Positions 9,581-64,000 of a stretch of 64,000 nucleotides of DNA are shown piece after piece. Position numbers and translations under genes: made by a program. Within the stretch, counting starts at the first letter, position 1; the number at the start of each line of letters is the position of its first letter. Origin of the DNA: Cheilinus undulatus (Eukaryota > Chordata > Actinopteri > Labriformes > Labridae). Location: NCBI RefSeq assembly GCF_018320785.1, contig NC_054885.1, positions 11,902,421-11,966,420 of the forward strand. Reading direction: 5' to 3'. The notes below the pieces were generated by a model that was not told the origin of the DNA, ran no database searches, and saw only the letters and a program-made list of their open reading frames with translations.

Positions 9581-10083
9581 TTAAAGGCAGGAGTCCCAGT
9601 GGATCTGAAGGTCACAACTATCCAAGAAATCTGTAGAAAAGACACTAGGGGGCGTTTGAGGTCCCAGAGGGTCCAGAGTCATGGCTTCCTCCTCCTTTTT
9701 TCCTCCCACATCGAAATCCAACCAATCCATACTGTCCGCACCTCGCTCCCTCTCAGCTGCTATATCGAGGGTATCCATCGGGGATGGGGGAGGGTCCAAG
9801 ATACTAGGAGTGCACAGCATTTCACTGTGGAGGTCATCAATTAACGTCAAAGGACCGCCGGGCTCCACCCCGAGGAGAGGCTTTCCCATGGTGCTTTCTA
9901 GAAAGTCCTCGAGACATCCACTCCCAGCATTACTGAGGTGCTGCTCCTCTTCTGTGGGAACTAACAGAGTCTGGGGCTCTGAGAGGGGAAACTGTGGGAT
10001 GTTAAGACAGGGTGAGGAGGAGGGGTTTGGATTCAGTTCATCTAGTGGACGGGTAGAGGATGGTTTGAAAGCAGACAGAGATT
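9581..10083 (-). CDS. mrtfa-like: MRTFA-like exon 18: C-terminal transactivation tail and stop
   Basis: The last exon encodes residues 963-1129. Conserved blocks are CLEDFLESTMGKPLLG, PLTLIDDLHSEML, PPSPMDT, DSMDWLDF and the terminal FSTDFLDSCDLQIHWDSCL, all characteristic of the MRTFA tail. The stop is TAA at 9583-9581. A minus-strand AATAAA lies at 9302-9297, giving a plausible 3' UTR of about 0.3 kb. Confidence 0.97.
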
Positions 10084-13000
10084 CTGAGGTAAAGAAATAC
10101 AGAAAGCTGAAATTAAACATTGCCCCCAAAGCACTGTTATACTGGTAACATACTATTATCATATTATGTATGATTAAAAGGTTGTAAGAACAAGGCTTTT
10201 GTTCTGATATTCAGTACAACAGCACATTCTGTTCACTTCAATGTGTGTTTATCAGGCAACCAGTGAAATAGAAGTGTGTTGATTGTTGCTTTGGTGTACC
10301 AGATGTTCTGGCCTTCTGTTGTATATCATTGCATCTTACCTCCTCTCTGCAAAGTGCTGTCAATAAAATCATCTTCATGCTCTCTATCCTGAAGAAAGAA
10401 TCACAAATCAATCAAAACATTAGTTCTCCAAATAATGAAACGAAATTGATTAATTTTGCACTGCGATACTATCATAAATGTTGTGTTCATACTTTTTTAT
10501 CCGGTGATGGAGCAGACAATTTAATCGAAGCCGAAGACAGCGGACTCAACAAATCATCTCTACAGGGACAAACCTAAAGAAGAAGAGAGGGAAGTGAATA
10601 AACTTTCACTTTCAGCAACCAGATGGTTACAAAAATCCCTTTGCAATGAGGCTGAGTAGTTCATTCATTCAAGATACTCATTAGCATGGGCTACTTAAGT
10701 GTGAAACCATGGTATATGCTCCTTAAGAGGACATGGTTGTGTATTATGGCTCTGGCTGAGCCAATGCAGGACATTCACAGAGTCGTCCCTAGGCACAGTC
10801 TGAGTTCCTGAGCGCTGCAGAGCAGGTTTTCATTGAGGATATCTCTTTACTTTGCTCCATTCAGCTTTCCCTCAACCCTGACCTCAAACACCCCACAGCA
10901 TGATGCTGCCACCACCATGCTTCACTGTTGGGATGGTATTGGGCAGGTGATGAGCACTGCCTGGTTTCTTCTTGACATAACGTTTAGAACTGAGGCCAGA
11001 CAGTTCAATCTTGGTTTCATCGGACCAGAGAATCTTGTTCGTGCTTTTTCGCAAATTACATGCTGGCTGCACAGGAGAGGCATCCATCCAACCACTCTGC
11101 CATAAAGCCCAGATCGGTGGAGGGCTGCAGTGATGTTTGTCCATCAGCTATGGGTTGCGCCAGCTATGCGAAAGTTCTAACATAGCCTAGTTTGAACAGT
11201 TCCTACTTAAAACTGAGTTTAAACGCTACTAACTTTAAGGTGTTGCACCAGCTGTGATAGTTTCAACGTAAGCTTAATTTCCTCTGGCCACTGTTAAATT
11301 TTCCTGTGTTATTCACCTAGGGGCGTAGCACGGGGGGGAAAAGGGTACTGATTACCCGGGCCCACAGTAAGGGGGGGCCCTTGAGGAACCTGCAATTAAA
11401 AGTGTGTTTTTATTTATTTTTTCTTAGTTATAAGTGTCATTATTTAATCAAAGGTGAGAAAATGAATCAGTCGACAGACTGAAATTTGTATCAAAGAGAG
11501 TAAAATAAATACTCCTCCCTTAAAAATGTCCAAATGGTATAGTCCAGCGCTGTGAAATAATGCAAGTAAATTCAGTTTAATCATAGTGAAAATATTGCTC
11601 ATAAATGTGGAAATTATGCTTTAAAAATACATTAAAATGCATAGATATTTGTTAAAAAGGTCATATCTGCTTAAAAATTTTGGTTAGTTCGGCTGTAAAT
11701 CTCTACAAGTTAATTCAACCTTCAACCTCTGTGGTGCAACCAAACAATTACACAACTTAAGTTGCAACTTAACTCGTTTCGATGTAGGGTTTAATGTGGA
11801 CTTAGCATCATAACTTAAGACAGAACTTACACATAGCTGGTGCGACAGGCTACTGGAGCTTTGTCCCATTGCCACACAGAATCTCTGAAGCTCAGGTTGT
11901 TGGTCACTAGTCTTACTAAGGCCCTTCTCAACAGATTGCTCAGTTTGGAAGGGTTGTGTCAAACTTCTTACATTTGAGAATTTTGGAGGCCACTGTGCTC
12001 TTGTTAACCGTCAGTGCAGCAGAACCATTTTTGGAGCCTCCCCCAGATCTGTGCCTTGCAATAATCCTGTCTCTGAGCTCTGCAGGCAGCTCCTCATGGC
12101 TTGGTTTTTGCTCTGGAGTGCATTATCAGCTGCGAGGCCTTCAATAGAGAATCATATCCAACTGTTTAACTTCCCACAGGTGGACTCCAATCAAGGCGCA
12201 GAAACATCTCAGCGAATATCAAGAAAAATAAGAGGAACCTGGGCCTTTTTTGAGGGTTGTTTTTGTGCTGAATCAAATGCAGTATGGCCATGAGTATGGT
12301 CATTGTTGGTTGGCTTGGTTCTTATAAAAATTAATATAAGGATTTCATAAATGTCAGTGGAAGATTTGAATGAAGACATTTACTTCCAGAATTCTATTGA
12401 CAAAAAATGGGGAGTCACTCTGAATGATTATGCACTTTATCTGAAGATTACTCACAATATTTTGGGAGGAAGGCGATAATGTGTTTCTGCCTGAGAGCGA
12501 TGTCTCCTGGTCCTTGAGAAAAGACTCCAGGGTAGAAGGGTGAGGCACAACTTCCTGTTCAGGCTGTTCAACAGACACCTGTGGTCCACCATTCTTCACC
12601 TTAAATATTTAACATAGCAGAAAAATGAGGACTACATCCACAGCATACTTCGTTTTAAAAGCTTTTTCATATTTAACGGCATCATTCCCAAATTATAGTC
12701 ATGTGCATAAGTTGTAGGCATGTGGGGCAGCCAGCATTGAGCTTGACACATGTTGACACACGTGTGTTGTTCGGCAGCCAAGGTCTAGCTCAATGGCCTC
12801 TCTTTTGTCTGGGCCTTTTCTGCCCTGGGCATACACCTGTGGGCCTTTGAACATCCACAGTACAACCAGGGGTTGTGGTAACCCTACTACCCACCCAGAT
12901 GGGAACCTAGGCCATGCTTAGTCACTATGCCCAACTCTTACCGTGCCCTGAAGGTGTGAACTTTGTGATTTTTTTCAACTGATCATTTTCCCATGCCCCT

Positions 13001-13850
13001 GATAATATGCAAGGACATCCAGAGAACAACCTGGGTTGTGTCAATCCTCCCTCACCTGATGGTACCCTCAGGTGGGCATACTCACCATTACATGACTTAC
13101 TTCAGCCTCAATTATGTGGAGATAATTTAGTTTATCAGATTTACACATCAACTCCATTCTTTAGAGTAAATTCTGTGCCCCCCAGTCTTTATAATTGGAT
13201 GGGTAAAAAATGACAAGGATTGTTCATAACAGCAGTTGCGGCGGCCATCCCACATTGTTCCAATAAATCACCACACTTTCAGAGGAAGATTTTCCTCAGG
13301 CACACCTGCACTCCATGAGAGCTTCTGTATATTTCTGTCAGCAGAGCCACAATGTCGTCTTTGTTCATCTTCGGTTAACAGCATTAATCACATTAATGGA
13401 GGATGTCGTCAGACTAATTAGTCAAGCAATAATTATCAGCGTCATGACAATGTCAGACACCATTATCAAGTGATGCTGTCACTGTCTCAAGCAGCATACA
13501 TCATTAATTTCCTCTGCTATTGGACTCGCTGGAGCACTTCTCTGTCATTCTCATGTTGGGCTCTTTTTATGGAGCATTAGCAGTCTGCTCGGTTGTTGAG
13601 AGGGAAGTGTTTGTTTACAATAGTGAGGTGAAATGTATACAATTAACTGTCGCATTTGAGAATGACTTAATTAAACTTGAAAGATCTGTTGATTTGTGAC
13701 TTTTTAGTGGGAAAATTTCTCTGGCGTTGCAGCAAAGTTGATTGGTTTTGTTTGGATATTGACTTTTATGCTGCCATCCTTGTCCAGTGAGGGCAAATGA
13801 CCTTTGTTTATTGCACTCAATGCTTCAAGGCAGTAGTTCACAACCTTATT

Positions 13851-13887
<37 letters not shown>

Positions 13888-16800
13888 ATCCTCCGAGGGC
13901 CCACTTGGTAAAGTTAAACATCAATTTTAAGTGTTTTCATTGACAAACTCCCAACATAATAGGCCTACATAAACTTAAAATCTATGTATAAACTATTCCT
14001 TATTATGACAGTGTATTAGGGGGACTTTAAGTTTAAAAAGTCCTTAATTTACAAGAAAAGAATCTGTATTTTTTACTTTAAAAGTTGTAAATGTGAGTGA
14101 AACAAACATAGTATTTTTGAGATTATAGAGTCAAAAAGGCAAACATCCAACCACTATTTTCAGCTCAGTTTCTTGTCAATTTTTGCTTAACACTGCTGAA
14201 AAGGTAGGATCTTTAAAACATATTACTTTTGAGTTTCTATTGTCGAAATTTAAGTTTTTTAAAACTTGGGATTTGCTTGTTTTTCTTGTAAATTTCCAAC
14301 TTATTAAACTCTGAAATTCTGAGTTTGTTTTCTTGTACATAAACAACTTTGATTTTTACCCCCTAAAAATGTTAACATTTTTGCTAAAAATTAAGTTTCT
14401 CACAATTATTTTAATCTTTAAGTTAGCCTCTCTGCATTATGTTTCTGATCATGATTTTTTAAAAATAATTGTACATCTAATTTTAACAACCTCAGAAAAC
14501 ACAGGGTCACACCTGAGATCTTTGGCACCCCTTCCAAGGGTGCCCGGACCCCAGGTTGGGAACCAGTGCTTGATTACTGTTGAACATGGAAGTTCACAGA
14601 CTCATTACTAATGTCAACTTACAGGCATCAGCAGGACTGAACCGCTACTGTACTTTGGGGTAGTGGTGATATCTTTCCCTAAAAAATGGGCTGACCCATC
14701 AAGACCCTGCCATTATCATCAGTAGTTTTTAACAGCATTTATCTAAACAGACACAACAGTGTTATTAGATAACATGCTATGACCAAGTTTTAAACACTTA
14801 GTTGAAATAAAGGACCATAATGCATCAGGACAGCATTAAAGTAGCATAAGCCCAATAGTATCCTGACTAAATATGCCTTTAACTTTTGTTATTACGGATA
14901 TCCCATGTGCTAACCATGTTTGGTTTATGAGCTCTAAAGGCAGAATAAAAATGTTCAGAGGGTTTAGCTGAAGTACAATGCTAACAGCATGGTGGATTCG
15001 CCATTGAAAAAGGACTGGTATAATAAACAAATAAGAAATTAGCTTCTTTCTACGATCACATACCTGTGGAATATGATTGGCTGCTTTGCTCCCAGGTGCG
15101 TCAGATCTTTGGTTCCCTGTGATGTAATTGGTCAGTGTAATTAGAGAGCTGTTACTGTTGCCATCGCTGACCAAGGTTGGAGTTAAGTCCCTCTTGAGGA
15201 GATTCAACTCTAACCAGCCTGTTACCTGGTTGATGTTTACTTGAGGCACCTGTGGAAAACAAAAAAAAAGGAAAAAAAAAAAAACACATGGCTTGATGAG
15301 ATATAACTTTAAATTTCTGATGAAAAATAACAAAGTGGCTGATCCTCTATGCTCTGTAAAATCTGCATAGCAAGCACGAATGTAAAGACACTCAACTCAC
15401 GAAGATATGTGCCATGATTGATTACGATATGATTTTACACCAACTTTTGTCTACATATGCTACAATTCCAATTCCATGCACTGGAAACATATCAAATATC
15501 ACCACCCTTACCAGGGCCTGAGCATCAGCCTTGGAGCAAGGACGCTACTGAAACCTTAGTCACTCCTTGATTATTATTATTTCTGCCATTCATGACATGT
15601 TTTGGGAGCCTTGACATAACTCATTACTTATATGACATTACATATTTTTATTTGGTTGATTTTACTTTGTAGAAATCTGTTTTCACTTTGACATTAATCT
15701 GATTTTTTGGATTATTTTGTCAAAAAACAAAAACAAAATGGATGTTGATCATGATTGAGTTATAAAATCAATAAAAGGGTGAAATATCCAAGGGGGTGAA
15801 TACTTTTATAGGCACTGTAGGCTTGTGATTTTGAGTCTGCTTATGGACTTTGAAAAAACCTACAAAAAAAAAAACTCTTGGGCCCATGAAAATATCCCAA
15901 CAGGAAGTCCACCTGCTTCATCTCAATTTTAAAATAAGGCATTTTTGCCTTGTAAGTTGTTATAATTTTGTATAAATTATTCTGTGCTTCGACATTTTTT
16001 CAAAAGAGAACAGCAACAAACAACACTGACATATATCATAACCCCACTGGCGATGGCAGGCACTCTAAATGTCGCCAGTGTCACAGGAAGTTGGCATAAC
16101 TCTTACATGAAACATCTTATTTCATTCAAATTTCACACATATGATACTGGTCTGCCCCTCTTTCAAAATTTAATTTTATGGTTTTGTTGTAGCGCCACTT
16201 AATGGGAGAAGCCAGTAACACTTCTAACATAGAAGGTTATTTTGAATTTTACATGATAAATATCACGTCTGCTCTGATCACATCTACATATTAGCATTTT
16301 GCTTTGACATACGGCCACCTAGTGTTAACAACTATTACTACCGCATATTCAAAGTGTAACCCTGCGGTTGCCATACACCCCCAGCATGCATTGGGATGCA
16401 AGGGGCTTCAGTTTAGCTTGCAGCCCTAGTTTTTCTTCTTTATAACTACAGGTTTCACTCTGACACTGAAGAAAAGAAACCCAAAGCAGATAGCATCCTT
16501 AGCTATATCATATAGCTACAAGGCAATATCTGGGATAGGCAACCTTAGCTACTAAAAGGGCCACATCAGTTTTCTTTCCTTACTGCTGGAGGTCCAAATT
16601 TCTAGGAATTGCAGGACACTCTTAGTTTAACAATTAATATTACCTATAATTATACATAAGGGACAAATGTATAATTTTTATCATTATTAAACAAAATTTT
16701 GTATTTTTTTTCTAAAATGCAAATAGTAGTACGTAATTTAATCAGCTAAACACTGAACTTAAGTCCATGTTAATTTCTTTTAAATGCATTAATACTGTTT

Positions 16801-17050
16801 ATTTTAATATGTCTTACTTGCATATCTGCCTTTTTTTCTGCATTTATGATGCATATTAAAGATCTCTACTGTAATAGTTACAGCCAGTTGTGTGTCTAAT
16901 TTCTAATAAAGAATCTAATATATATAAATAATAGAAATGTTTCTATTTTTCATGTGTTAATAACACATGTGATCATGTTTTCCTCATGTATACAATTTCT
17001 TGATATTTGAAACCAACTTGATGGCCATACGTGGCCCCTGTGCTGCCAGT

Positions 17051-17090
<40 letters not shown>

Positions 17091-20000
17091 ATGTATCATC
17101 AGACAACTAGATAAGCGCTAAACAAGCTTAAATATATTAACCATTCATCATTACATCCCTAAGAACTAGTATAATGGCAAAAAGGAAACTGTATTGTCAA
17201 AAATATTGATACATCCTGACCTGCTGTTGCTCCTGTTGCTGCTTTAGAAGCATCTTGGTCTGTACTTGGGTTCTTTGCAGCTGTTCAGACTTCTGCGGCT
17301 GCATACACAACTTTTGCTGCTTTAATGAAGTTTGTTGCTTCAGCTGCATCTCTTGTGGGTGTTGCCTCAAAAGTTGCTTCTGCTGTTTGAGCTTTGGTTT
17401 GTGTGATTTCGTCTTTTGCTGATGAGAAAGTTTGGGCTCACTCTCCAACCTCTGAGGCGTTTGTTGTGGGCTCTGACTGTTGTGCCGTCGCTGTAGCAAG
17501 TGTTTCTCTATGGCTTGATGATGAGCCAACTTTGGAGTGGTTTGCTGGAGATGTAAGTGTTGTTTTCTCAGAGTGCTTGTCTGCTCTGGCTTCATTTGGA
17601 GTTTAATTTGCTCCCGTGCCTCCGGAGTTTGGGTTGAAGGTTTTGGTAATCTGTAAGCATCTGGTATTTGCACAGTTGTCTCAGAAACAAATTCCTCCGC
17701 CTCGATGGTTTCCTGTTTGACAGAAACTTTTGTAACATCCATCTCACGTCTAAAGGGCGCTGGTGCAGGAATTAATGGTGGGTTGTGGAATGAAAGAGGG
17801 ACACTGGGCTTATCTGGAGGCTCTTGTTTAACTCTTACAAGAACATGGGTCTCTGGCACATGTCCTCCTCTTTTACCACACTCCAGCTGCATCCTCAGCG
17901 CCTCCACTACCCTCTGTATCTGCCTCAGCATCCGGGTTAATTCCTCTATCTGCTTGTCTTTTTCCCTTAGCATTTTGTCTTTGTCCATAGTCACTACTGG
18001 AGCTGAGGCTGTGGTGCTGGGGCCAGTTAATGAGACTGGACGATGTTTCTGCAGACAGGCTGGCTTTGAAGTGAATTGACAAGGTGCTGAGGTGGAGCAC
18101 ATCTGCTCTTCTTTAATATTTGGGAGTGGAGCAGCTGAACACGCCTGAAGGCTCAGCTGGGTGTGAGGTGAACTCATCTGGACAGAAAGAGAGGGAGGAA
18201 AAAAGGTAAACATAGCAAGAAACCTTCAAACAGCAAGCGGTTCAGATGGCTAACCTCATCATTGTTGGCATGTTATAACAGTAAACGTCCTCGTAGTCAT
18301 GCCAGCGCTCAAGGCTTTGCCTATATTCAAGATAGCAATTTCAACATGCTAATGTTTAACTAGTATCTGTTTCCCATGTTTGTCTTTTTGGGCTCTGAAT
18401 TGACATGTAAGAAAATTCCAATTTCAACAAAGTAATGCTTAGCTAATTTAGGTCTATGCTGGCTAACATGTTCAAAATGAAAGTATTGTCAGCATACAGT
18501 ATAAAGTCTTCACTCCCTTGGAAGTTTTACACCTTGGTTGTTTTTATAACTCAACATCTTTTGGCTTCTGACTAAAAGAATAACAACAAAAGGCAAACTT
18601 TCATGGCAACTGAAAACAGACCACTGTGGCCTAGTTCAAGGCTGTTGTTGCCATGATAATGAGGCTAGGCCAAGCAGCAAGGACAGCACAGGAGAGCATA
18701 TTTGTTCATAGCTTGGCATTTATTTTTTATTCTCCACTATTATTAATTCTTAGCTGTCAGCAGTGTCACTTTTGGAGGTGATGAGGGACAGACTGGCGTC
18801 AGTCCTGCAGATGATGAGCAAAAAAATGGAGCAGAAACCAGCAAAACAAACACAGACAAGTACAGGTGCAATAGGCTGGCAAGGAAATCATATTATAAAT
18901 AGAATTAGATGTACTTAGATTGAGTTATATATTTACAGTGCCGTGAAAAAATATTTGCCCCCTTCCTGTTTTTTTCTTTTTTTTTGCATATCTATCACAC
19001 TTAAATCTTTTTGCTCATCAGAAAAAATATCAGACAAAGACAAGCAGAGTAAATGAAAAAAAAATAGTTTTCAAACGATGATTTCATTTACAAGGGGTAA
19101 AAAGCCATATAAACCTATGTGGCGCAATGTGAAATAGTAAATACTGCTCCTTTTGCACAAATAACTTGCTCCACTCATGTCAAATTGCTTGTATGCGTGT
19201 GCCAAAAAGACATAATTGGGAAAGGCCTTGCTTCTCTCACATTCAGCATGTCAGTCCGTTGTCAACAAACCAAGGTGCTAACTTGGTAGTAGATGGCTGA
19301 AATCAAGTGACAGACAAACATTTTCACAACTTAACAGGCGATCTGACTTCCTCTCTAACTTTCCTCCATGCGAGCTCCTTTATAATTCTGTGCCAGTAGA
19401 ACAGGCACATCGTGTCGTATAGCTTGGGGTAGCCACAGACAGACACCACAAGTTTCCCCTCCTTTTTCCAGTCTAATTAACCGCCTCCCCCCAGGCTGGT
19501 CCTTCAGGGATCCGCCAGTGACGTATTTCACATGGGACACCGGCGGATCTCTGAAAGACCATGCTGATTGGCCATCGCAATGCAAGTGACTGCTTGAGTT
19601 CATATTTTTCAACTTTCCCGAATAAGCAAATGAAGCGAACAGCACGTTGAACTCAACATGAATTTGCCTCATTTATGCAAATTAAACGAGCAATATGCGC
19701 TGCACATTTGCAGCATTCGCGCTGCCTGAGGCGAGCATTTGTCCACATTGACTTTTCATGTAATCAACTCACACAAGTGATTTTACTTGTGTCTTGTGTG
19801 AACACACAGGCTTTGGGACTCAAACCACAAACCAGTCTGAGAGCCATTATCCACAAATGGAGAAAACTTGGAACAGTGGTTAACCTTCCCAGGGGCAGCT
19901 GGCCCACTAAAATTACTCCGAAGCACATCGATTACTTATCTAGGATGCCAAAAAAGAACCCAGAACTTTTTCACAGCTCTCTATTTTCCAAGTTTAATCC

Positions 20001-23000
20001 CACAGAGAACAGCAATGGTTATGTGTAGAGTGGTGCTGAAAATGCATGAGTTCACACACTGTATATTTCATAAAATGCTATTTTCTATGGAATAATCAAA
20101 TATTTGCCAAAGCTCCTGACCTAAGAGTAGGCCCCCTCTATCTCAAAGTCCCAGGCTGAATTTCATGCAGGATGTGTAAGAAGCTTTAAGTCAGTGCCAA
20201 ATGTTTAAGATTGATTTTCAGGCTTTTTATGATCAGATTTATGTACAGAAACAACTATAGGAGAAAAATTCTGACCCTTTCCTGTTGTTGGTCACAGTTA
20301 AAGCCTGTGTCCTCAGGGCTCATACAGCCCGGCGAGCAGTGGGAGGGGGCGAGTGTGACGGATGTGGAGGAGAATGAGGCTGCAACAGAGATAAAGAAAA
20401 ATCTTAGCCAAAATGTAATACATTATCCACCCTCTTTTCCACAGCTCCCTTATCTTTAAACACTTCAATACTTAATTCAGTGAAGAGCTGTGATTGATTC
20501 AATCTCCCGACTGACCGCTCAGAGATGTGTGATGCTGTGATGTGTTGTTGTTGATGGTAGCGGCTGCAGCAGTTTTGGAGGATTTTCCTTCTTCTCCAGT
20601 CGTCAGCCCTGTGGTACCCCCTGCTGTCAGAAAGGAGGTAGTGCTGCTCCCTTCATTCAGTCCCTGGTAGGTCCTCAGCCTCTCAATGAGGTCGATTTTG
20701 GTGCCGGAGACGGGCAGGCTGCGCAGCTTCAACTCAGATTTCAGCTCTGCAACCTGACAGGCGATAAAGTCAAAGACAAATTATGATTGAAGGGAAGAGG
20801 GAGGAGATGAGGATAAATTTAAGAGGGAATAAGGAAGGAAAAGGGTAAGATGACAACAAAAAGACACAGTGATGCATCACTGCCCTTTGCTTTGTCAGCT
20901 TTAGCTTTTATTTTACTCTTGTTGGTCCTGGCAACACTAAACTAACAATGCCATTTTTAAATGTGGATGTTTGACCTTCATTTCATCCAGGTTCGGAGGT
21001 AAAGTCGCTGGTTTTGTCCAAGCTGTAGAAGCAGAACTCAGATTCTTATGACAGCCCTGGTTTGACAGGACTGTTGAAGGGGTGGAGACAGGTGGAGTGG
21101 AGGAGGATGACTGCTGATCCATCTGAGGTCTGTTGTAAAGAGTGAGAGAAAACAACACGGCAATTAAACCAATATAAAAGAAACCACGCTTTTCTTAAAG
21201 CATGCTCTCAGACAAACACCCCAGGCGTCAAAGCATTCAGTTTCCAAAGGTTTAACCACACACAGTGAGCTTGCTCATGCACAACAATAAATAAAGATGA
21301 ATAATTACTTCAGTGTTGCAGGCAGGATGGCGTGGTAGTTCTGCTGTTGCTGCTGATTAATGATCTGGAGCTGCAAGACGAGCTGCTGCTGCTGGACGAT
21401 CTTGGCATAGGGTGAGTCCAGACAGATAGAAGGCTCCTTATCTCCCCTTTGGTCAGGGGGAACATACTGATGGTACTTTAACTTTTTAATCTAGAAAGCA
21501 GCACACAAACAACATGATGAGAAATGTTTTAAACAGTAGCATGAGCACTGGGAAGGAATTTTCTACAACCTGAAACCAAAGCTTACCTTTGGTTTGTCAT
21601 CCTTTACTTTCTTCTGTTTCTGTGCGGAGTAGTCAGCATTTGGTTTAAGCTGGGACTGAAAAAGAGTGGAGTACTGGTAAGTGTACAAACTTATACCGAT
21701 GACTAAGATGGCAGAGGCTGCATACAGCGACTGTTGCCCCGGTTCTTCACTAGTCAGTTGAACAAAAACTTGCCAAAAGGCATGTTGGAGACTAAGCGAT
21801 GAAACGTAGCGTCTTGTCTGATGACACTGAAATGGTGCTTTTTGGCCATCAGACAAGACGCTACGTTTGGCAGACGCCAAATACTGCACCATCCCCACTG
21901 TGAAGACTAGTGATGTCAGCATCATGCTGTGGGGATGCTACTCAGCAGCCAGCCCTGGAGGGCTTGTACAGGTTGAGGGTAAAATGAATTGGATAAAATA
22001 CAGGAAAGTCCTGGAGAACAATCTTATTCAGTCTGCAAGAGAACTATATCGTGGGAGAACATTTATTCTCCAGTCAGACAATGACCCAAAGCATACAGCG
22101 AAAGCTACACAGAAATGGTTTAAAGGTGATTTTTCACCTTTATGAATGTTCTGGAGGGGCTAAGTCAAAGCCCAGACCCCAATCCGATAGAAAATTGGTG
22201 GACGGACTTAAAAAGGGCTGTTCACACCTGATCCCTGTGCAACCTGGCCTAATTCTATTATATATATTATATTTAAAATTAATGAAAGGGTAAAAAATTC
22301 AAGGGGGTGAATACTTTCATTGTATCAAAAAAATGTAAATCCTTTATTTCTAGGTAGGGGCAGCAACGAAATGTAAGCAAGAAGATAGCGGATCAAAAAA
22401 AAAAATTGCCATCTTATGTCACAAATTCAAATGTTTTACAGGTCACTGTTTGGTTGGCTTTCACCCATGTCACTTACCTTCTTCTGTGATGTCACACATG
22501 TACTCTGTGTTGATGGTGTGACTAATTGATCAGCCAGCTTCAATAATGGGGAGGATCCAGAGATTTGGGTAGTTTGAGAAGGAAGTGTGACCTAATGGAT
22601 AACATAAAAAAATGCACACACAATATTAATATTTACATGTCAGCTTATATGCAACAAGTAATTACAGGATAGAAATGCAAAGATTGGTGCAAAGTGATTT
22701 GAAAACCAACATTTTATAAAGTTGGAAATATATGTAGATCAGAAAGACTTTTTTTAAACAAATACAACCCTAATTTAAAAAAAAAAAAAAAAAGTTGGGG
22801 CATTGTGTAAAATATAAATAACAGAATAAAATGACTATAAAAGAACCAAGGCATACAGAGGTGGCTTTATGAAACAAATAAAAAAAGGCAGACATGAATT
22901 AATGACAACAGCTAATGCTAGCAATCAACCGCTGTCTTACTAGCATTGCCTTTAGCCGAGAGTTTTTACATTACATGTCAAAAGGAAATGTTAGCAATCT

Positions 23001-26000
23001 GTGTTAGCTAGATGAGGGCTGACGGTGTAAACCTAAAAATCTAAGAACTTGGAAGTACTGAAAGACTTAACTTAGAGATAATACACAAAACTAATAACTC
23101 TTTGGACAATTCCTAATAATCACAAACAATGGCTTTCTTGCTAACGTCACCTTTAGCTTTAGTTTGACATTAGACAACAGCTAATGTTGGCGATCAACCT
23201 CAGTCCTAATGGCATTACCATCACTTGAGAGTTTAATGTACATTGTCAAAAGGTAATGTTAGCAAGCTGTAACTTGACTGTTAGCTAGGAAGAGGCTAAT
23301 AATGTAAACCTGAAGATGTAAGAAGTGGGAAGCATTGAAAAACTTCAAGAAAATGGACAAAACTAATAACTTACAACTATTAGAGAACTTCTAATGTTAG
23401 CAAACAACTTTCTTGCTAACATTACCTGTAGCTATAGTTTGTGCATTTTATGGTATATAGGCTACAGTGCTATAAAAGTCTGCTAACTGTATGCTAAAGC
23501 TACTGTTAGCTAGGAGAGGACTAAATTTTAGCATTGTTTTAAGAACACCTCAGCAATAAAGATAGTGAGAACTCATTCGCTACCATTAGACCAGTGTTAA
23601 CTTTAGCAATGAACCTAAAACAGTTGTTCACTGGGAAGTTGCTGTTCACTGGGAAGCTTATCTTATTTTATCTTAACCCTATTTTTAAGCCAAGAAGCAC
23701 TACCTCCCACAATGCTAGTGTGACCCTACCTGCGTACAAGGTGGGGGTGAAGCCTGAGGAAGGAGGATCAGCGAAGATTCCTGGTTCACCGGCTGTTCTG
23801 GAGACAGACTGTAGCCACTGTCCTCGTCACAAGACCAGTTATCAAGAGCAGCCTTTGGAATCTCCGTCTCTAAGATGGAAAGAAGGGATGTTCACCAGGG
23901 AATTACCACCATGTAAGCTCAGGCTATCTTTATGAAGAGTAGACAACAAACAGAAACTTTATTTTTATGTTACTAAATTTTGTCTGTGTTACTCATGCAG
24001 TTCTTTATTGTTTTGATGTATCTTTTAATAAAGTCTCTTGATTTTCTCTTATCTTCTGATTCAAAGCCTCACACTGAAAGACGGAGCCACTCAAAACAGC
24101 ATTGTTAATATCTTTTAAGACCATGTAGGTCATGAAAACATGAATAAGAATTGTTTTGGTAATAAGCAAATCTTCCATAAAGCTTCCATGGACAAATGCT
24201 CCTAAAGCCATTTTCAAATATGTAATTTCTGGCAGCCTGAAATCTTCCTGAGTTAGCCATTCACAGATTAACCTCACAGCAGGAGACTTTCTCTCTCGGC
24301 TGGGATGGGATGGGGTCTCAGAAAGCATAAAAAGGACAACCAAGAAATGGCAGATAAAGCAGCAGGGTCTCGGGCTACTAGGACATTTTTATGTCAGTCT
24401 TTATCTGTGGTAAATTTGCCATATCATCAAAGGAGCAGAGAGAAATGGTGGTGAACAGCAACCAGAAGCAGCAGTTTCATAGCCTGCATAGAGAAAGCAC
24501 TAGAGATGCACCCATGTTATGATCAGTGGGGGTAAGTTATCTGTAAGAGTACTCTGAACACTTTTGTGTAGTAATGCACCCATGGACTACCTTTATGTCT
24601 AATTTATTGAAAATTCTGTTAATATTCACGTCTTAAGTAACAATGTGTGAGCGTGTGGAGAAGAGATAGCACCTGTCCAGGAGAGGAGAAAATATCGTGT
24701 CTACAACTATGACTATGGTGACTATGGCATCAGGGTCTGACCTTGCAAAGCAGATGGATTCGCCAATTTCTGTGTTTCTCACTGGCGAATCCATCCTGCG
24801 AAGCTCCCATCTGAACCTTTTGGGCACGGTTAGAGAGTGACGGGATCAATCAGTGTTGAGGGGCAGTACTTTCGGGAGCGGCAGAGTTGTGACGTATGCA
24901 AGCAGCAACAAGAGGCCAGTGCAAATATTGTGGAAGACATTAGCGTGGATGCTGCTAAAGCGCCAGTTTTATCAGAACTTGACGACGTTTTTTTCGTTAA
25001 AAGAAAAACAAAGAGCAGCATTGAGTTGTTTTCTATTCAAAAACGACAAAAGTCGTGCACGGACATGTCTACAGTTGCCATGGTTTGCGTTATGCACTTC
25101 TCTATGGAGTTTACTTGTCGGTTTGGGGCTGCGACATCACGTGTTTTGTTGCTCTGATCGGCCCGTGAAGATGTGACAGAACGTTCATCCAATTACTCTC
25201 CAAGTTTTTTTTCAAAGGCTCTGCCCTTTCCCAAATGCCGTCTATGGAAGGTTTACCAGATGGATGTGTGAAACCTTGCCTGGAAGGTTTCACCACTACC
25301 CTCTTGTCACTCTGTTTTAAGGGGTCTTGGAAAACCCTAAAACAAGGGCTAGGTTTAGGGATATGGGGAAAAAACTGAGTCTTTGAGTCAAATACAGTAG
25401 ATGCATAAATCCTATCTTAAATATAATCAAAACAGGTGAGTTATAAAAACATAGTCCCCAATTCAGTGTGCACCAGTAAAAAAAATAAACAAATTATGCG
25501 AAAAAAAATTGATGAACAAGTCTGTAAACATGTTTATTCCAGCTGTAAATATGGACATTTTATATGGGTGTTAATGGGAGCTTCAGAGTTTTTGGAAACA
25601 GCCTCAAGTGGACACTTGAGGAATTGCAGTTTTAAAACACTTGCATGTTGGCTTGGTTTTTTTTGTTTGTTTTTTACAACAGAGGTTGCTGCTTGTTTAC
25701 AACATGAGATACTGTCCACTGGCTGGAACAAACTTTACCATGACAACATTTCAAAAACAGGTCAATCTTATATCCATTTTTTGGGAGGCTTTGGTGTTTG
25801 ACCAGTAAACAGTCATAGTTTTAATAACTCAGTACTACGTATTGAAATATGTAACTAAAAGATGAATGTACCCATATCTGTCAGCTTTAGTAGTTCCAAG
25901 CTCTGGTCCTGGGTTAATTTTCCCCTCAGGGATCATATAATCATTTCATTACTATGCAGATTTGGGGATTTTTATAGGGCTTTAAGGAGTAAAAGCATGT

Positions 26001-29000
26001 GCTAAGATGCCACACACTGATGATAGAGACTATTCCTTTGCAGGTGGGTGTGAGTTATTTCATTACAAGAGCTGCTGTGGGCTGCTGCAGACGGCTTTAT
26101 AAAATGACCCGCTGGTCATTAATTCAGCATCAGCAGGCGATGATGAAAAGACAACATGGGGCTGATTTAACAGCCTTAAATCCAATAATGCGATGACATT
26201 CCTGCTGCAGCCATGTGGCTGTGTGGGTCTGCGGTTTGAATGTTTGTATCTTTACGTGTCAGCTCTGTGTAACTCAAATTTAATGCAATTGTGTTTGTTG
26301 TTCAGCGGTGACAGAGATAGATAATCCCCTGATACTGGACGTTATTGAATCTCAGCGTTCTTCCCTGTGCACATCAATCAGGCAGGCATGAGCCTCTGTC
26401 TCTGATGGTCTCACACAAAACACTGGAGCCAAAGATGCACAATTACATGAGACAGTACCACATTTGTCTTTCCTCTTTTCTTGTATGTAGCTGTGCTGTC
26501 CTATTCCTACCCTCAGGGTCTTCGAGGATCCTTGAAAATTCTTAATAAAAGTCATTCAATTTAGATTGTGATGTTCAGATTCTGATTTAGTCAAAACGCC
26601 CAGGAAACAGTCAAAACTGAGCTGATTTATTTAAGACATGATCATCATAGCAGTCGGATAATCATGTGTAGTTGGTTTGCAGAAATCAGCGTAATTAAAG
26701 TAGGCAATGCTAGCTCTTCAGGTTAACACCTTTAAGTTTCTGGGATCCACAATCTCCCGTGGCCTGACGTGGACCTCCATCAAAGATTCTGTTCAGAAAA
26801 AGGCCAAACAAAGTCTGTACTTCCTTAGAAAGCTTAGGAAGAATAATCTGCCTCATCGTAGAGTCTGTTCTCTGCACGTCCATCACCGTCTGATATTGGT
26901 CTGCCACCAAAAACGACAGGAACAGCTTGTAACAGATGATCAGGTCTGCAGAGAAAATTATTGGGACCGACATCTCTCCATCCATGACTTGTACTGGTCC
27001 AGAGTCCGGAAGTGACAAATGAGGTAACAACTCTGCAGGCACCACAAATCCTGGACACAAACTGTTTAAACTCCTCCCTTCTGGTAGGCGTTAGCAGGTA
27101 CTCTGCTCCAAAACAATCCAACACAGAAATAGTTCTTCCACAAGGCTGTTACTCTGATGAACGCTTAACTGTCACAGAGTGACTCTGAACAACACTCAAC
27201 AGTCACAGAGTCACTATGATGCAATGTTAATTTTGGCAGTTATTTTAAATTTTAGTCTTAGTTTTAGTCTTTAAATGAAATGCATTTTAGTTTTAGTTTC
27301 ATTTTATTTATTTCTACCCATTTTAGTTTGACTCAACAAAAACTCAAAACATTTGAGTCTAGTTTTAGTCCATATAGAGTCCTCTCATTTTAGTCTTTAC
27401 TTTTAGTCTGAGCATTTATTTTCTTGCCTAAATCTGGTACCAAATCAATGGTAGTGTGTTCTATGTGCTCTGCTAAACCTGGGGTCCCTGCTTTCTACAG
27501 CTGAGAGGCAGAATAGCTACAGCTGCATTGTTTTTTGACAGACCCACAGTGGAGAAATATCACAGATTTTGACTGCCAACAAAAACTACATTACATTTTA
27601 GTCCAGTTTTAGTCATCTTGAGGAAAACTAAACTTAGTTTTTGTCAGTTTTAGTCATCACAGATCTGTTCTTGTTAGTCTTAGCCTAGTTTTCGTCAGGG
27701 AAAAAAAAGGCTGTTGACGAACATTTTTAGTCATAGTTTTAGTCGATGACATTAACACTGCTTTGATGACCGCTCAACAGTCACAGAGTCACTCTGATGA
27801 CCAGTCTCTTACTGCTTGCCTGTATCTTTAATACTGTAAGAAAGATTACAGTGGTAAAAATTTCACTTCATATGGCCATTAACTGGAGTTACAGTGGCTG
27901 CTACTAGTGGGTTGCAACATCACAGCTCAGACAGTGTTTGATTGGGATTTTGGGGCTGAACTGATTCAAAATGTTCAGAATTTCTTTAACTGACAAGTAA
28001 TTCTAGTGCTGGCCTTAGCCATTTAGCTGGATAATTGCCCGCATCCCTGGATTGGGGCAAAGATGGTCTAGTAGTTTGGTTTTGCCCCATGGATGCAGAC
28101 GGCTGCTTCAAGTCCAGCCTGTGGCTTTTTTTCCCCACTCTCTAAGAAAAATCTCAGAAAAAGATTTAATCCTGAATGTAAAGCCTTCATTATTGACAAA
28201 ACTTTGGGAGAGCTTTTCTGAGTTTGCTGGCAGATCTCTAAAGTGATGCTCGGCACTTATTTAACTCTGGGTTTTGCCTTGTTATGTGAGCTTCTGACTC
28301 ACTCTGGAAGTGATTCTCTTTGTTTATCAGATTTAGCATTTATTCTACATTACCCGGGGACTGTAGAATCCTCGTGTTCTAACACTGCTGGTCCATAAAC
28401 AGTACAGGCAGAGTGTTTGTATGTCAGACACAGTAGTCCATTACCAGCAGTACATTTAATTGATTCATAACCATAGTAATTAATTTTTGGCAGTTCTGAA
28501 GGGACTCGATTTTTTCCGGCACCTCTACTCCACACAAAGCTGGGGCCACACTGCTCCCTTCCAGGGTTTCTTTTGTAGCTCATTTCTGCCAATTTTGTGC
28601 TTCTGGTGAGTGAGATAAAAGGCTCACAGTAAGTCTTATCAAACAAAAATAACTGAACAAAAAAGTCAAGCTTATAATTGGTTCCACTTGTCAGAAATAA
28701 TAGTGAAAGAGGAGTTATCTACAGTCCAGCTTAAAATGGAAAACAGTCCAAGATAAAATTAATTTGGTGGAAAATAATTTCAGAAACACTGAATTGTTTG
28801 GGCGGTTTCTGTGTGTCGTTTAAGCTCCACGCCAGAGTGTAAGTGACAAACTGAACAAGCCCGCACTGCACCATGGTTCAGCTTACCTAAGATAGCCTGC
28901 TCAAGGCTGGGGGGAACAGGTAGGATGTTGTTGTGGATCAGCTCCGCAGGCTGGTGTGAGATCTTATCGCTCAGATCATCAGCGAGGCGAGCTCTCTTCA

Positions 29001-32000
29001 GCTGCAGCTGCCTGGCCTGGAGCGATGGCTCTGCGGACGTCTCTGGATGCAAACAGAAACAAAGGAAATACTTCTACCGGTGTGCTGGAATACTTAAGAG
29101 TTGGGCAGGCAGGAGGATGTACTGTATGAGGCTCTCACCCTCCAGGACGTGCATTTGGATTGGTACAGAGCTTCCAATCTGTCTCTTTAGGTAGTCCTCA
29201 GTCTGCAGAAAAACAACTGTTCACGGCAATCTCTTACTTCTTAATTCACACCACATGATTATCAATTCACCATAACTCACTCTTTATCTAACATAAATCT
29301 GCCCTGACCTTTGGAGTCCAATCCCTCTGCACTATCATCCATGCTAAATGGCTCACTTTGTTCTATTTATCATCTTAAATACATGTCATTTCATTAGCTA
29401 TTTAAACTACTAAGCTACAACCCCAATTCCAAAAAAGTTAGGGCACTGTTTAAAATGTAAACAAAATCAGAATGGAATTATTTGCATATTTCATTCACAA
29501 TAGAACATAAATGATATTTCAGATGTTGAAACTGAGACATTTTACCATTTCATGAAAATATTAACTCATTTTGAATTTGATTGCAACAACACATTTCAAA
29601 AAAGTAGGGACAGTGTGATGTTCACTCTGTAAACATCTGGGAAGTAAGGAGACCAGTTGATGGAGATTTGGAGAGGAATTTTGTTCCATTCTTGTCTGAT
29701 GGATTCTAGCTGCTCAATAGTTCTGGGTCGTCTTTGCTGTATTTTCTTTTTTTGATGCAACAAATGTTTTCTATTTGTGAAAGGTCTGGACTGCAGGTAG
29801 GTTAGTCCAGCACCTGGACTCTTCTATTGTGAAGCCATGCTGTTGTGATGGATGCGGTACAAGGTTTAGCATTGGCTTACTGAAATATTCAAGGCCTTCC
29901 CTGAAAGAAATGTTGTCTGGATGGGAACAGTTTGCCATTTTCCATTTTGCCTCGCTCCATTTTTAATGAGCTGTATCCCAGGCAAGACAGCGGCATTCCT
30001 GGATCGTGTCCACACACGGCTTCGTCTTTGCATGATACAGCTTTAACTTGCATTTGTAAAAGGCATGGCCAACTGTTCTTGAGCCCATGCAGTGATTTCC
30101 AGAACAGAATCATGCCTGTTTTCAAAGCAGTGTCATCTGAGGGCCTTAAGATCATGAACATCCAACAGGAAATTTAGGAGATTTCTTCAGATTCTCTGAA
30201 TCTTTTGATGATTTTATGTACTGAAGATGGTGGGTTATTCAAAGTTTTTGCAGTTTTACCCTAAGGAGCATTTTTGTGAACATTTTCCACAATTTTTGGA
30301 CCCAGTTTCTCCCAGATTTATGAAGCTTTTCCCATCTTTACTTCTAAGATGCTCTGCCTCTCGAAAATGCTCCTCCGGCTGTTTTTCATTAGTACCACTT
30401 ACTTTTCCAGCCTTTTCCTGCCCCGTCCATACTTTTTTGAGATTTGCTTTTGGTTTTCAAAACTTTTCAACACTCAATTTATTAGTTCAAGCTTTGGCAA
30501 TGCCACAGTTTTAAACATGTCAGTATTGACAGGACAGGGGTAATGTTCAATATGAGTAATGTTTCATGCTGATTACTGCTTGAATGCTTTTGTTATTTCT
30601 GGTCGCTCTGTCTCACATTCTTATTAATGACAGAAGGTCATCTTGAAACAGGGCAGCTTTTACTGTGTGATAACTGCTCACCTGAGCTGGCTCCAAGCTC
30701 CGTCTGTTCTCATGGATGGCAGCTGAACTTTTCAAAGCTTGAAGTTTGATTGATGAAAGCAGAGCATAAGAGAGATAGAGGAGACAATAATGTGGTAGTG
30801 AGTGCATGTGAAGTCACTGAAAGACCATAGAGGTTTTGAATTGTTCAGAACCAGGGCAGATCAGATAGTTTACTGATACTGAAGATCTGCCTTATTACTA
30901 AAGCTTTTGTCAGAGCAGTGATGCCTGCTATTAATGAAGACACTTATGTATTTATAATCCATGACTGAAGTAAATGGACAAGAGCCTAGGCAGTGGATCC
31001 AGGCTCTGTGAAAGACCACATATCTGAGGGTAAAGGAAGAAACATATAGAGGGTTCCAGACCAATGAGCCTCTCTGTATCAGTGGATTTAATGGTGTCTG
31101 TTCATAAATGGCTCAAGCAAGGCTTTCTGAAGGCCTGTGATTATGCAAAAACCAAGGGATTAGGGCTGATAGAATTCTTAAACCCTTAAGGGTTGTGCTG
31201 ACACCAAAAATGCTATGTTAAATGCAGCATCACAGAACACTCAATATTAATCTGCTTCTAAAACAAGACTCACAACCTCAGACTATCTAATGATGTTTTA
31301 TTGCATGCAAGATGATGTAATATAGATGGGAAATTGGGTGGGAAACTACACAAACGAGGCTTGGGCTCTAATGTATCTGGGGAAGGAAAAGCCATCCAAA
31401 CCTACATGGCGCTGTGTGAAAAAGTAATTACTCCTAAAACCTTGCTCTGAGCATTGCTCCTTTAAGAAGGATTCACTGGTTGTACCAGCCAGGGAGCTAG
31501 GCTATACAGTGTAACAGATGGGTACAGTGTCTCGCCAGAATTTAGCACGTTTTTGGTTAAAAAGGGTCACAAATCAATGTTGGCTCAAATGTAAACACTA
31601 ACAGAGAATTTTAAGCATTTATTTCATACCCAGAAAGCCCAACTTCAAAAAAACTAAAATGTCCCTTTGAAATTTGTTTGGTGATCTGAAACATTTCAGT
31701 GTAACTAAATTAATAACAATCTCACAGCTGCCAACAAATTAACACCGACTAATGTGAGGATAGCGAGGTCTCCATCCACATTTTGGCCAAATTGTTGACT
31801 TCATAATTCTTCCAGAGGCTGATAAATTGCTGAAATTCCAGGTGTTAAAGCATGGTGTCTGTGCAGGGATTTCTGATGATGATGTTTATCATGTGGAAAT
31901 TTTTTTTTTAATGTGTTCATTGCAAATTGTATTGAAGCCTATGTCCGCCTCTTAAAACTGAAAAATTTGAAAGTTAAACAATTCTAAAAATAATAATGAT

Positions 32001-35000
32001 AAAAGGTCATAGTTATGAAATAAAAAGTCATAATTTTGACATTTTATCTAATCGGTTAGACTTTTCATCTTATAATTATGAGTTTTTAAATCATTATTTT
32101 GACCTTTTATCTCATAATATTGACTTTTAATCTCACAATTTAGACTTTTTTTCTCATAACTATGCCTTTTTAGCATATAATTTGGATTTTTAATCTCATA
32201 ATTATGACTTTTTAATCTGATAATTCAACCTTTTATCTCATAATTTTGACTTTTAATCTCTAGTTTTGACTTTTTAATCTCATAATTATGACCTTTACCT
32301 CATAATTTTGAGTTTTTAATCTCATAGTTATGACTTTTATCTCATAATTTTGACTTTTTAACCTAATAATTCAGACTTCTGATCTCATAACTATGACTTT
32401 TAATCTCTATTTTTCACTTTTTAATCTCAATTTGACTTCTTATCTATTAAAATTTGACTTTATCTCATAATTTTGACTTTTTAACCTAATAATTCAGACT
32501 TTAAATCTCCTAATTATGACTTTTAATCCTTAGTTTTCACTTTTTAATCTCGTAATTTTGACTTTTTATCTATTAATTTTGACTTTATCTAAGAATTTTG
32601 ACTTTTTAATTCCCCATTATGACTTTTCATTTCATAATTTCAATTTTTTAATCTCATAATTATGCCTTTTTATCTCACAATTTTGACTTTTAATCTCATA
32701 ATGTCAACTTGTTAGTGTCCCAATTTTGACTTTTATTCCATAATTTTGACTTTTTAATCTCATAATTATGGCTTTTTATCTAGTAACTATGCCTTTTAGC
32801 CCATAATTCTGACTTTTTATCATATAACTATTGCTTTTTATTTCATAATTAAGACTTTTCATCTCATAATTATGATTTTGGATTCTTTTTATTAATTTTT
32901 AGAACTGCCTAACTTTCAAAGTTTTCTTTTTTAAGTGGTGGAAATGGATTTCCATGCTATTGTCGTAATGCAGTCAGCTAAAAATGTATTATAGATTTCC
33001 ATAGATGTTCTGTGATAACAAGCAAATTTTGGTTGTTATATTCCCAGGATAATGTGATAAATATGTTAAGATCTTATAAAAATTAAAATGCATTTGATTT
33101 TAGAGGAAAGCTCACTTTGGGCTTCCATAGAAGGCAACAAGAAAAAGCTCATAATAGGCCACATAACTCATTTTAATACAATCTTAACAGTGTGAAGTCC
33201 AATATTACAGAACTGAGAGAAAATATATTGCTGTTTTAATGCCTTGTGACTGTGCTGCACACACGTGTTTGTGACTAGATTAGCAACCCTCGGGGAAGAC
33301 TGCTGGTACCTGCACAAGCCTGAGTTCACGTCGCTGAACACTGTCACAGTGCTGGTACACTCTCACTCCTGCACACCCCAGGGACATTAACCCCTCTCAG
33401 ACCTTTCACCCCACCACAAGGGTGCTATGTGACCCGCTTGTCAGTCAGCTACGTCTGAAACGAGTGCCGAGACGGAAGGAAAGGATGAATGAGCGGGTAC
33501 GGAGTGAAAGAGACGAAGAAGATGACGGAGAATCGAAAAACAGATGGAGGGGAGACGGGGAAAGGAGATAAATGGAGGGAGGCAGCTGGAAGAAAAATGG
33601 AAAAACAGACCAAAGGGCGAATGAAGAGGAGGAAACAGAGAGTAGTGGGATGAGGTCAGAGAGAAAAGACCCTATTATGTGCATGAGTGGCTGCATCATG
33701 GCTTCTTGCCACCCTGCTGAAGCTAACCAGCATCCTGCGTCTGTACACCATGGAGCAGCATCGCCTACGGCTCTTTAAACTGTGCCTTCGCATGGAGTCA
33801 AAGTCCGGGCCTCCCAGTCCACCCCTGAACACAACACTGCTCCTGAGATATTCAGCACCTCTTAAGCAGAGTTAAATAACCCCGTTTGAGTCCAACATGG
33901 TGGACACATTTTCATAAGAATGGCACAAAGAAGACTGCAATGGCATATTCAGAGATCAACATTTATCTCCACAAAATAGAAATGGCTGTCTACTTACGCG
34001 GCATGACCATGCCTCCTCTGGACCGTCTCTGTTGAAGTTTGAGCTGGAGAACTGAACACAGACAAAAGGAAGAGACAGACACAGGGAGCCTCATTAAACA
34101 GCAATACATCAACTCTACCTCCAGACAAAGGAAACCACTGGAGCAGTGACATTACTCATAACTTTAAATAGCTTTGAATAAAAAGCTCTGTCTGTGAATA
34201 TTAGGAGTAAAACTGTGCTGTAACATCTGAGCTTCTCTGCAGAGGTTTCATGCTCCTTGTTTGCCTAAATTGGTTCTCTGTGGGATGACATACAGCATTC
34301 AGACCAACGAACACTTCTGAGAATGCCTGTGAAGTTTGTTGCTGAAAAAAAAAAACACTCCAGTATTGGATTTTTGCATGTCTAAAAAACCCTCTGTTTC
34401 ACCTCTGCTCAGAAGGAGCTGTTTCTGTGGTTTTAAATGTTACTGAGCTGTCTGACTCCGCCCATCTCAGGAAATGGATGTGGTTTAACGGATGTTGCTC
34501 ACCTGACCATCCTCTCAGCTGAGGATCAGGAGAGGAGGGCGGAACTTTCTTCCAAGCAGGGAGGGCCAACGAAACCTGGGGGCGTGGCTAACTCCCCAAA
34601 TGACATCATCAGGGGAAAATCTGAGATTGGCTTGGGCAGAGAATGGATTTTTCTGACTCTTGGGGGGCACATATTTTTGTTAGAAAAGCCTGAAAAAAGT
34701 GAGATTTGTATAATATGTCCCCTTTAAGAAAAACACGCAAAAATAAGGAAAATGGATTTTTTTCTTTGGTTAAATTTTACCTAAGAAGACACTCCAATGT
34801 TTGCATTTTCTATATAATAAAGCATTTCTGCTGCAAAAAAAAAAGGATTACAGTTGTTTTAATGCTTGCAGGATATTGAAATATTAAACCTTCTGCGATT
34901 TGAAAATTGCAGCATGCCATACCGCGATTTAATCTAAATGTCGATTACTTTCCCAGCCCTATGCTCGACCATGGAAACCCCTTCCATGAAACTCCCACTG

Positions 35001-59836: not shown

Positions 59837-60270
59837 TTATTTTTTATGTTTCTTTATTTCTAAAGTGTAGTATTCCTCCTGCAACTTCAAGACTTTCAAC
59901 TGCATTTTGATTTTCTCCCTCTTCAGTTGTTCAAGGTCCATCATGTCCTGATCACAGCTGGTCGAAGGTCTGGGGATGGATCCTCCCATTTTGGTTTCAG
60001 GCAGGATTTCAGAATTTTCTGCAGAATGAAGTAGAGAATCTGCTGGTTCAGTTTTTACGTCTCTTTGTCCGTCTTGCATCCTTGTATCACTTTGAGTTAA
60101 CTCCTCTGGAGCATTGTTTTCATCTGCAATGAAAGCTCTGACAGGCATCTGCATATTTTTTAAAGGAGATGCTTCTGCTGCTGAGTCCAGAGAGTCTTCT
60201 TGTGTTGATGTGATTAATCCTCTCTCTGCTTCTTTTTGTGTGTCCCCGTCCAACGGACCTCGCCAACTGC
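59837..60270 (-). CDS. SAND gene exon i: C-terminal exon and stop
   Basis: It encodes GSWRGPLDGDTQKEAERGLI through a polar region with a SUMO-type site (DVKTEP) and ends with a predicted helix MDLEQLKREKIKMQLKVLKL then QEEYYTLEIKKHKK. The stop is TAA at 59839-59837. The helix resembles C-terminal coiled coils of MADF/Myb-SANT-like and other transposase-derived factors (my inference). Acceptor gcgaag is atypical in its pyrimidine content. Confidence 0.85.
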
Positions 60271-63816: not shown

Positions 63817-64000
63817 CTGCAGTCATTAGAAAAAAAAAAACATAACAAACATGGAAATTCTGATGTGAAAACGATCAAGCCCATCTTTGTAACAGCTATT
63901 TCACCTGGTCACATTTACCTTATCAGTTACAATTACAATATCTCAAGAAGTTTTTCTTTTTTGGGGGGGGGGGTGTTAAAAGACATATTTTACCCATTAA

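Follow-up and report, generated by a model that had tools for sequence, protein, structure and literature searches.

A duplicated MRTF-A gene with eroded RPEL motifs in Cheilinus undulatus, a predicted actin-insensitive coactivator of SRF

MRTF-A (MKL1/MAL) is an actin-regulated coactivator of SRF, and the binding of actin to RPEL motifs is the defining control of the MRTFs. G-actin competes with importin for a nuclear localisation signal (NLS) in the RPEL domain, and export needs intact actin sites (PMC4963197, partial text). The NLS sits between RPEL2 and RPEL3, where it is blocked by G-actin (PMC3928398, partial text). Mutation of L74/L78 in the mouse protein abolishes RPEL1 binding, and constitutive activity is described both for MRTFs that cannot bind actin and for myocardin (MYOCD) (PMC4963197, partial text). 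Myocardin is described either as unable to bind G-actin (PMC4963197, partial text) or as having a considerably lower affinity (PMC9900090). Even the MRTF of a sponge is predicted to carry conserved RPEL repeats (PMC9287330, partial text). The present analysis concerns an mrtfa copy of the fish Cheilinus undulatus, carried by a stretch of 64,000 nucleotides (C21:11902421-11966420, hereafter the window), and compares it with a sister mrtfa copy of the same genome.

The window copy resembles MRTF-A by its group in the tree, by the ends of exons 2 and 4, and by its RPEL-domain linkers, basic block, B1, Q-rich region, SAP domain, zipper and C-terminal end. It differs from MRTF-A in that all RPEL cores are eroded, the Ser-Pro of spacer 1 is lost and the QMDDLFDIL element has diverged. 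With the constitutively nuclear myocardin it shares a kept NLS, and it would be expected, rather than observed, to be likewise without effective G-actin control. However, it stands in a separate tree group, and myocardin keeps recognisable RPELs whereas the window copy has three deletions and a Pfam score below the cut-off. The constitutive activity reported for laboratory mutants of MRTF-A that cannot bind G-actin (PMC4963197, partial text) is predicted for the window copy, which differs from them as a natural, genome-encoded state hitting all three motifs. It is rather probable, in our opinion, that the window copy is a duplicated MRTF-A whose G-actin sensor has been dismantled, and that it would act as a constitutively nuclear SRF coactivator, separate from myocardin.

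Erosion of the three RPEL motifs

The window copy was modelled on the minus strand as 17 coding exons (34051..9581), giving 1083 codons plus the stop from exon 2 onwards. Exon ends were picked by hand at AG/GT sites. The 17 AG acceptors and 16 GT donors have consistent phases, and the model contains no stop, frameshift or broken splice site that would mark a pseudogene. Exons 7, 15 and 16 were placed from open frame and splice sites only. The exons, all on the minus strand, are as follows.

33998..34051, minus: exon 2, RPEL1 remnant VLQLKLQQRRSRGGMV(-4)MP; N-terminal leucines kept, core EEL altered, four residues gone (sequence, mouse and sister alignments)
30682..30737, minus: exon 3, spacer 1 (PLKSSAAIHENRRSLEPAQ); Ser-Pro mapped to mouse S98 now Ser-Ser (site role from PMC4963197, partial text; mapping our own)
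29139..29202, minus: exon 4, RPEL2 remnant TEDYLKRQIGS(-4)SVPIQMHVLE (sister alignment)
28887..29042, minus: exon 5, spacer 2 with basic block LKRAR kept; RPEL3 remnant KISHQP(-2)AELIHNNILPV (mouse and sister alignments)
23730..23869, minus: exon 6, DEDSGYSLSPEQP stretch (tblastn, model, sister)
22478..22591, minus: exon 7, low-conservation linker (open frame and splice sites)
21587..21655, minus: exon 8, lysine-rich beginning of basic region B1 (tblastn, model, sister)
21309..21490, minus: exon 9, B1 (KKLKYHQYVPPDQ) and Q-rich region (model, sister alignment)
20976..21129, minus: exon 10, linker to SAP (tblastn, model, sister)
20516..20753, minus: exon 11, SAP domain, 43.9 bits (Pfam, model, sister)
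20276..20379, minus: exon 12, linker, weak match in sister (model, sister)
17221..18177, minus: exon 13, leucine zipper MDKDKMLREKDKQIEELTRMLRQ..., then Q/K-rich region (model, sister)
15064..15249, minus: exon 14, LLKRDLTPTLVSDGNSNSSLITLT (model, sister)
12456..12599, minus: exon 15, low-conservation region (open frame and splice sites)
10493..10573, minus: exon 16, low-conservation region (open frame and splice sites)
10340..10388, minus: exon 17, probable diverged QMDDLFDIL counterpart (DDFIDSTLQRGE; correspondence with sister by eye)
9581..10083, minus: exon 18, conserved C-terminal end LEDFLES...FSTDFLDSCDLQIHWDSCL and stop (tblastn, model, sister)

The lesions are located in exons 2, 4 and 5, where the letters quoted in a preliminary description of the window were all found in place on the minus strand. 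Exon 2 (34051-33998) reads VLQLKLQQRR-SRGGMV-MP, exon 4 (29202-29139) reads TEDYLKRQIGSSVPIQMHVLE and exon 5 (29042-28887) reads ...KRARLADDLSDKISHQP-AELIHNNILPV. A search of PDB sequences with the 111-residue N-terminal part of the window copy gave mouse MRTF-A as best match (2yje_M, E=4.8e-36). Compared with this protein, the window copy is shorter by 4, 4 and 2 residues in RPEL1, RPEL2 and RPEL3, respectively. The corresponding net losses of 12, 12 and 6 nt are the same with respect to mouse MRTF-A and to the sister, in frame and inside exons, in agreement with the estimate of about 4, 4 and 2 residues in the preliminary description. The exact placement of the gaps depends on the aligner but the net loss is the same in all alignments. 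Exon 2 has 54 nt versus 66 in the sister, exon 4 has 64 versus 76, and exon 5 has 6 nt fewer within RPEL3 (the end used for sister exon 5 falls one base before its GT, and bases past NILSV enter no count). In line with an argument made earlier from the window alone, the losses do not stem from mis-set splice sites, since exons 2 and 4 of the sister have the same ends.

As read from these letters, all three RPEL cores of the window copy are eroded, the cores of RPEL1 and RPEL2 being destroyed and that of RPEL3 crippled. In one alignment with the sister, the residues missing from RPEL2 are RPER, which include the RP of RPxxxEL, and EL is replaced by VP; RPxxxEL survives in none of the three motifs. 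The Pfam RPEL model (PF02755) gave the RPEL region 13.0 bits (E=0.088, model positions 2-12) for a cut-off of 23, with no passing stretch, and the full window protein had no RPEL match at E<=10. As controls, three stretches each were recognised in the sister (79.6 bits) and in two mrtfb-like genes (91.5 and 85.1 bits). The N-terminus of human MYOCD, its sequence being entered by hand, reached 48.5 bits with 3 stretches, and RPEL3 of a myocd-like locus 26.2 bits on its own. The sister motifs read VLQLKLLQRRTREELVSQGIMP, KIRSRPERSELVRMHILE and KISHRPGPIELVHKNILSV; KISH and LQLK are common to both copies.

The distribution of the changes was examined by taking as RPEL core 13 columns per motif, a choice of our own. 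Of the columns that do not vary between mouse MRTF-A, the sister and the two mrtfb-like genes, the window copy keeps 14/32 in the cores versus 42/49 in the linkers (Fisher P=1.5e-4). Because deleted columns are not independent, the comparison was repeated with each deletion as one event (P=0.0046); it gave P=0.031 with substitutions alone and P=0.0037 with a broader motif span. When mouse is used as the outgroup, window-specific versus sister-specific changes amount to 22:0 in the cores (15:0 with each deletion counted once) and to 9:2 in the RPEL-domain linkers (P=0.065). The window copy is somewhat fast overall; what sets it apart, at the level of the alignments, are the three in-frame deletions together with substitutions that cluster in core columns.

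Other parts of the protein have been kept. The SAP domain scores 43.9 bits (PF02037, cut-off 23.9). The basic block QLQLKRARLADDL between RPEL2 and RPEL3, to which we map the importin-binding role described in PMC3928398 (partial text), is identical to that of the sister. The B1 basic block, the Q-rich region, the leucine zipper and the C-terminal end are kept as well, as judged by tblastn and alignment to the sister.

Descent of the window copy and other family loci

Searches of the 1.17-Gb assembly revealed five further myocardin-family loci besides the window copy.

C20:14.07 Mb: sister mrtfa copy, all three RPELs intact
C20:13.3 Mb and C21:22.3 Mb: mrtfb-like pair, RPELs kept
C20:1.73-1.76 Mb: myocd-like locus, RPEL1 and RPEL3 found, RPEL2 not seen in the stretches examined
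C8:31.5 Mb: myocd-like locus, weak in one search (E 0.05-0.9) and clearer in another, covered from B1 to SAP only

The RPEL1 core is kept at 4/4 of the other loci where the RPEL1 exon was seen. The C8 locus (31.4988-31.4996 Mb) is compact, myocardin-like and fast-evolving, with B1/Q and SAP matches within about 0.8 kb; no RPEL match was seen in the short stretch examined there.

A tree was built from 9 rows and 190 columns, the RPEL cores being left out. Three human rows were entered by hand and the C8 row is only 42% filled. The window copy, the sister and human MRTF-A group together (support 99/97), and the window copy pairs with the sister (92/92). The MYOCD rows form a separate group (100/100) that leaves the window copy outside. 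Since the window copy thus belongs to the MRTF-A group beside an intact sister, its RPEL loss is separate from that of myocardin, and the same claim of the preliminary description finds support in this tree.

The genome has two mrtfa (MRTF-A/MKL1) copies issued from an old duplication, and the window locus is one of them. This duplication was probably that of the whole teleost genome, because synonymous sites are mostly saturated and because an mrtfa-like gene and an mrtfb-like gene occur on C20 as well as on C21. In the 223 codons outside exons 2, 4 and 5, pN is 0.12 and pooled dN is 0.13 with saturated synonymous differences, and dS is infinite in 6/9 blocks and in the pool. On these rates the pair is old and long constrained, with a recent relaxation possible as a single pair was compared. 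No flanking synteny was seen when 114 kb of C21 were compared with 100 kb of C20, in a listing to which filters on identity, stops and hit number had been applied. Inspection by eye of the exons shared by the two neighbourhoods showed only known exons and repeat-like matches, and no exon 1.

Loss of actin control and rival explanations

How might such a copy behave? After duplication, its G-actin sensor was dismantled by the three in-frame deletions and the substitutions. The failure of one or two RPELs would bring down joint actin loading and lift the constraint on the other cores, which would fit the core-centred erosion. With no actin on the RPEL domain, the NLS would be always accessible and actin-assisted export would fail. 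The window protein would then stay in the nucleus and co-activate SRF without Rho-actin input, and the sister would retain the regulated role. The interpretation of the preliminary description is retained in part: the eroded cores, the kept frame and main domains and the loss separate from that of myocardin are found again, and the constitutive nuclear behaviour is a prediction. A bolder proposal, in which we place somewhat less than even trust, is that the copy represents a second, independent actin-blind SRF coactivator, standing, myocardin-like and under continuing selection, perhaps clade-wide, so that the two mrtfa copies would have split regulated and constitutive roles.

Several observations speak against a dismantled sensor in an otherwise working coactivator. 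Outside the RPEL domain (206 columns, the outgroup here being a human sequence entered by hand, and one proline shared by the two fish copies being omitted in the block TADb to match the human length), window-specific changes also exceed sister-specific ones (23:10, P=0.035). Whole-exon dN with respect to the sister, deleted columns excluded, is 0.15, 0.17 and 0.10 for exons 2, 4 and 5, and is not raised compared with exon 3 of spacer 1 (0.18) or with five other blocks (0.11 to 0.15); therefore, the signal lies in the deletions and in the chosen core columns. QMDDLFDIL has diverged to DDFIDSTLQRGE in exon 17, where the sister has QQMDDLFDILLKSGG. In spacer 1 two arginines are lost (SLERAR to SLEPAQ), and the change of Ser-Pro to Ser-Ser also counts against full integrity. 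To call the gene otherwise intact was thus slightly overstated, the frame, the NLS block, SAP, the zipper and the C-terminal end justifying the term, and QMDDLFDIL and spacer 1 not. Moreover, RPEL1 keeps its leucines and RPEL3 its EL..NILP half. The first coding exon was not found among the matches listed by tblastn with three N-termini as queries; of the 1129-codon open frame given earlier, the openness stands for the 1083 codons modelled, which start with exon 2 and run down to the stop. Finally, the basis is one genome in a single assembly.

The faster evolution elsewhere, the diverged QMDDLFDIL and the two lost arginines would also fit a general relaxation. The main rival is a dispensable duplicate in slow decay, where relaxation is gene-wide, the sister does the work and the RPEL loss is an early step to a pseudogene. 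The unraised dN of the RPEL exons agrees with decay, as do exons 7, 15 and 16, which have no clear match in the sister. Yet the 1083 codons are free of stop or frameshift, the SAP domain evolves no faster than in the sister (1 window-specific versus 2 sister-specific changes), the three deletions are net multiples of 3, and window-specific change is concentrated in core columns (22/39 versus 23/206 elsewhere), so that we hold decay to be unlikely. The rivals are not mutually exclusive. Because the RPEL1 leucines and half of RPEL3 remain, the remnants might still hold G-actin, either weakly or in a different register, through the RPEL1 leucine helix and EL..NILP, and the actin set-point would only be shifted. 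The kept leucines map, by our own counting back from S98, to mouse L74/L78 (PMC4963197, partial text), RPEL3 retains AEL and NILP, and a residual Pfam score of 13.0 bits is left over model positions 2-12. This explanation seems improbable, considering that no RPxxxEL is left and that myocardin, whose motifs are milder in their departure by the score of the human sequence, is nevertheless described as failing to bind G-actin (PMC4963197, partial text) or as binding it with considerably lower affinity (PMC9900090).

Still less credit may be given to a role of modulator, for instance as a zipper partner of the sister MRTF instead of a constitutive activator, which would be compatible with decay. 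A zipper kept while QMDDLFDIL diverged would suit it, but conservation also holds for the C-terminal end (47% in a match of 190 columns with the sister, with 39/48 and 24/32 in two gap-free blocks). Lastly, an assembly error or mis-set exons, by which intact RPEL exons would have been missed or garbled, is very improbable. The single assembly and the missing first exon leave some room for it; on the other side, three separate exons are affected, each with a net in-frame loss and clean splice sites, and the sister shares the ends of two of them. Additional exons with intact RPELs, named beforehand as a refutation, were also sought. None was found in the window by tblastn with human MRTF-A. The Pfam RPEL search of the genome showed none near the gene among the 20 matches listed of 63 scored, the sole listed C21 match being at 22.3 Mb; its silence is weak for RPEL1-type exons because the intact RPEL1 exon of the sister went unlisted too, which is a further point for caution. 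An RPEL1-spacer query of the genome (E<=10) gave 7 matches, none at the window locus, window exon 2 itself being unmatched.

Novelty and additional observations

That loss of actin binding leads to constitutive activity is already known. A natural MRTF-A copy without its RPELs appears to be new within the literature searched: among the titles and abstract starts listed from open-licence literature, none was seen to describe an RPEL-less MRTF-A in fishes. A natural sensor-less duplicate would provide a ready-made experiment on the purpose of actin control and on the dependence of MRTF import and export upon it. It also bears on the question whether duplication gives rise to actin-blind SRF coactivators again and again.

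Two minor features of the window may be mentioned. The intron between exons 2 and 3 contains an AT-rich tandem array (32028-32879) with a period of about 21 and about 41 copies. Upstream of the gene, open stretches rich in acidic residues (59840-63822) are possibly exons of another or transposon-derived gene.

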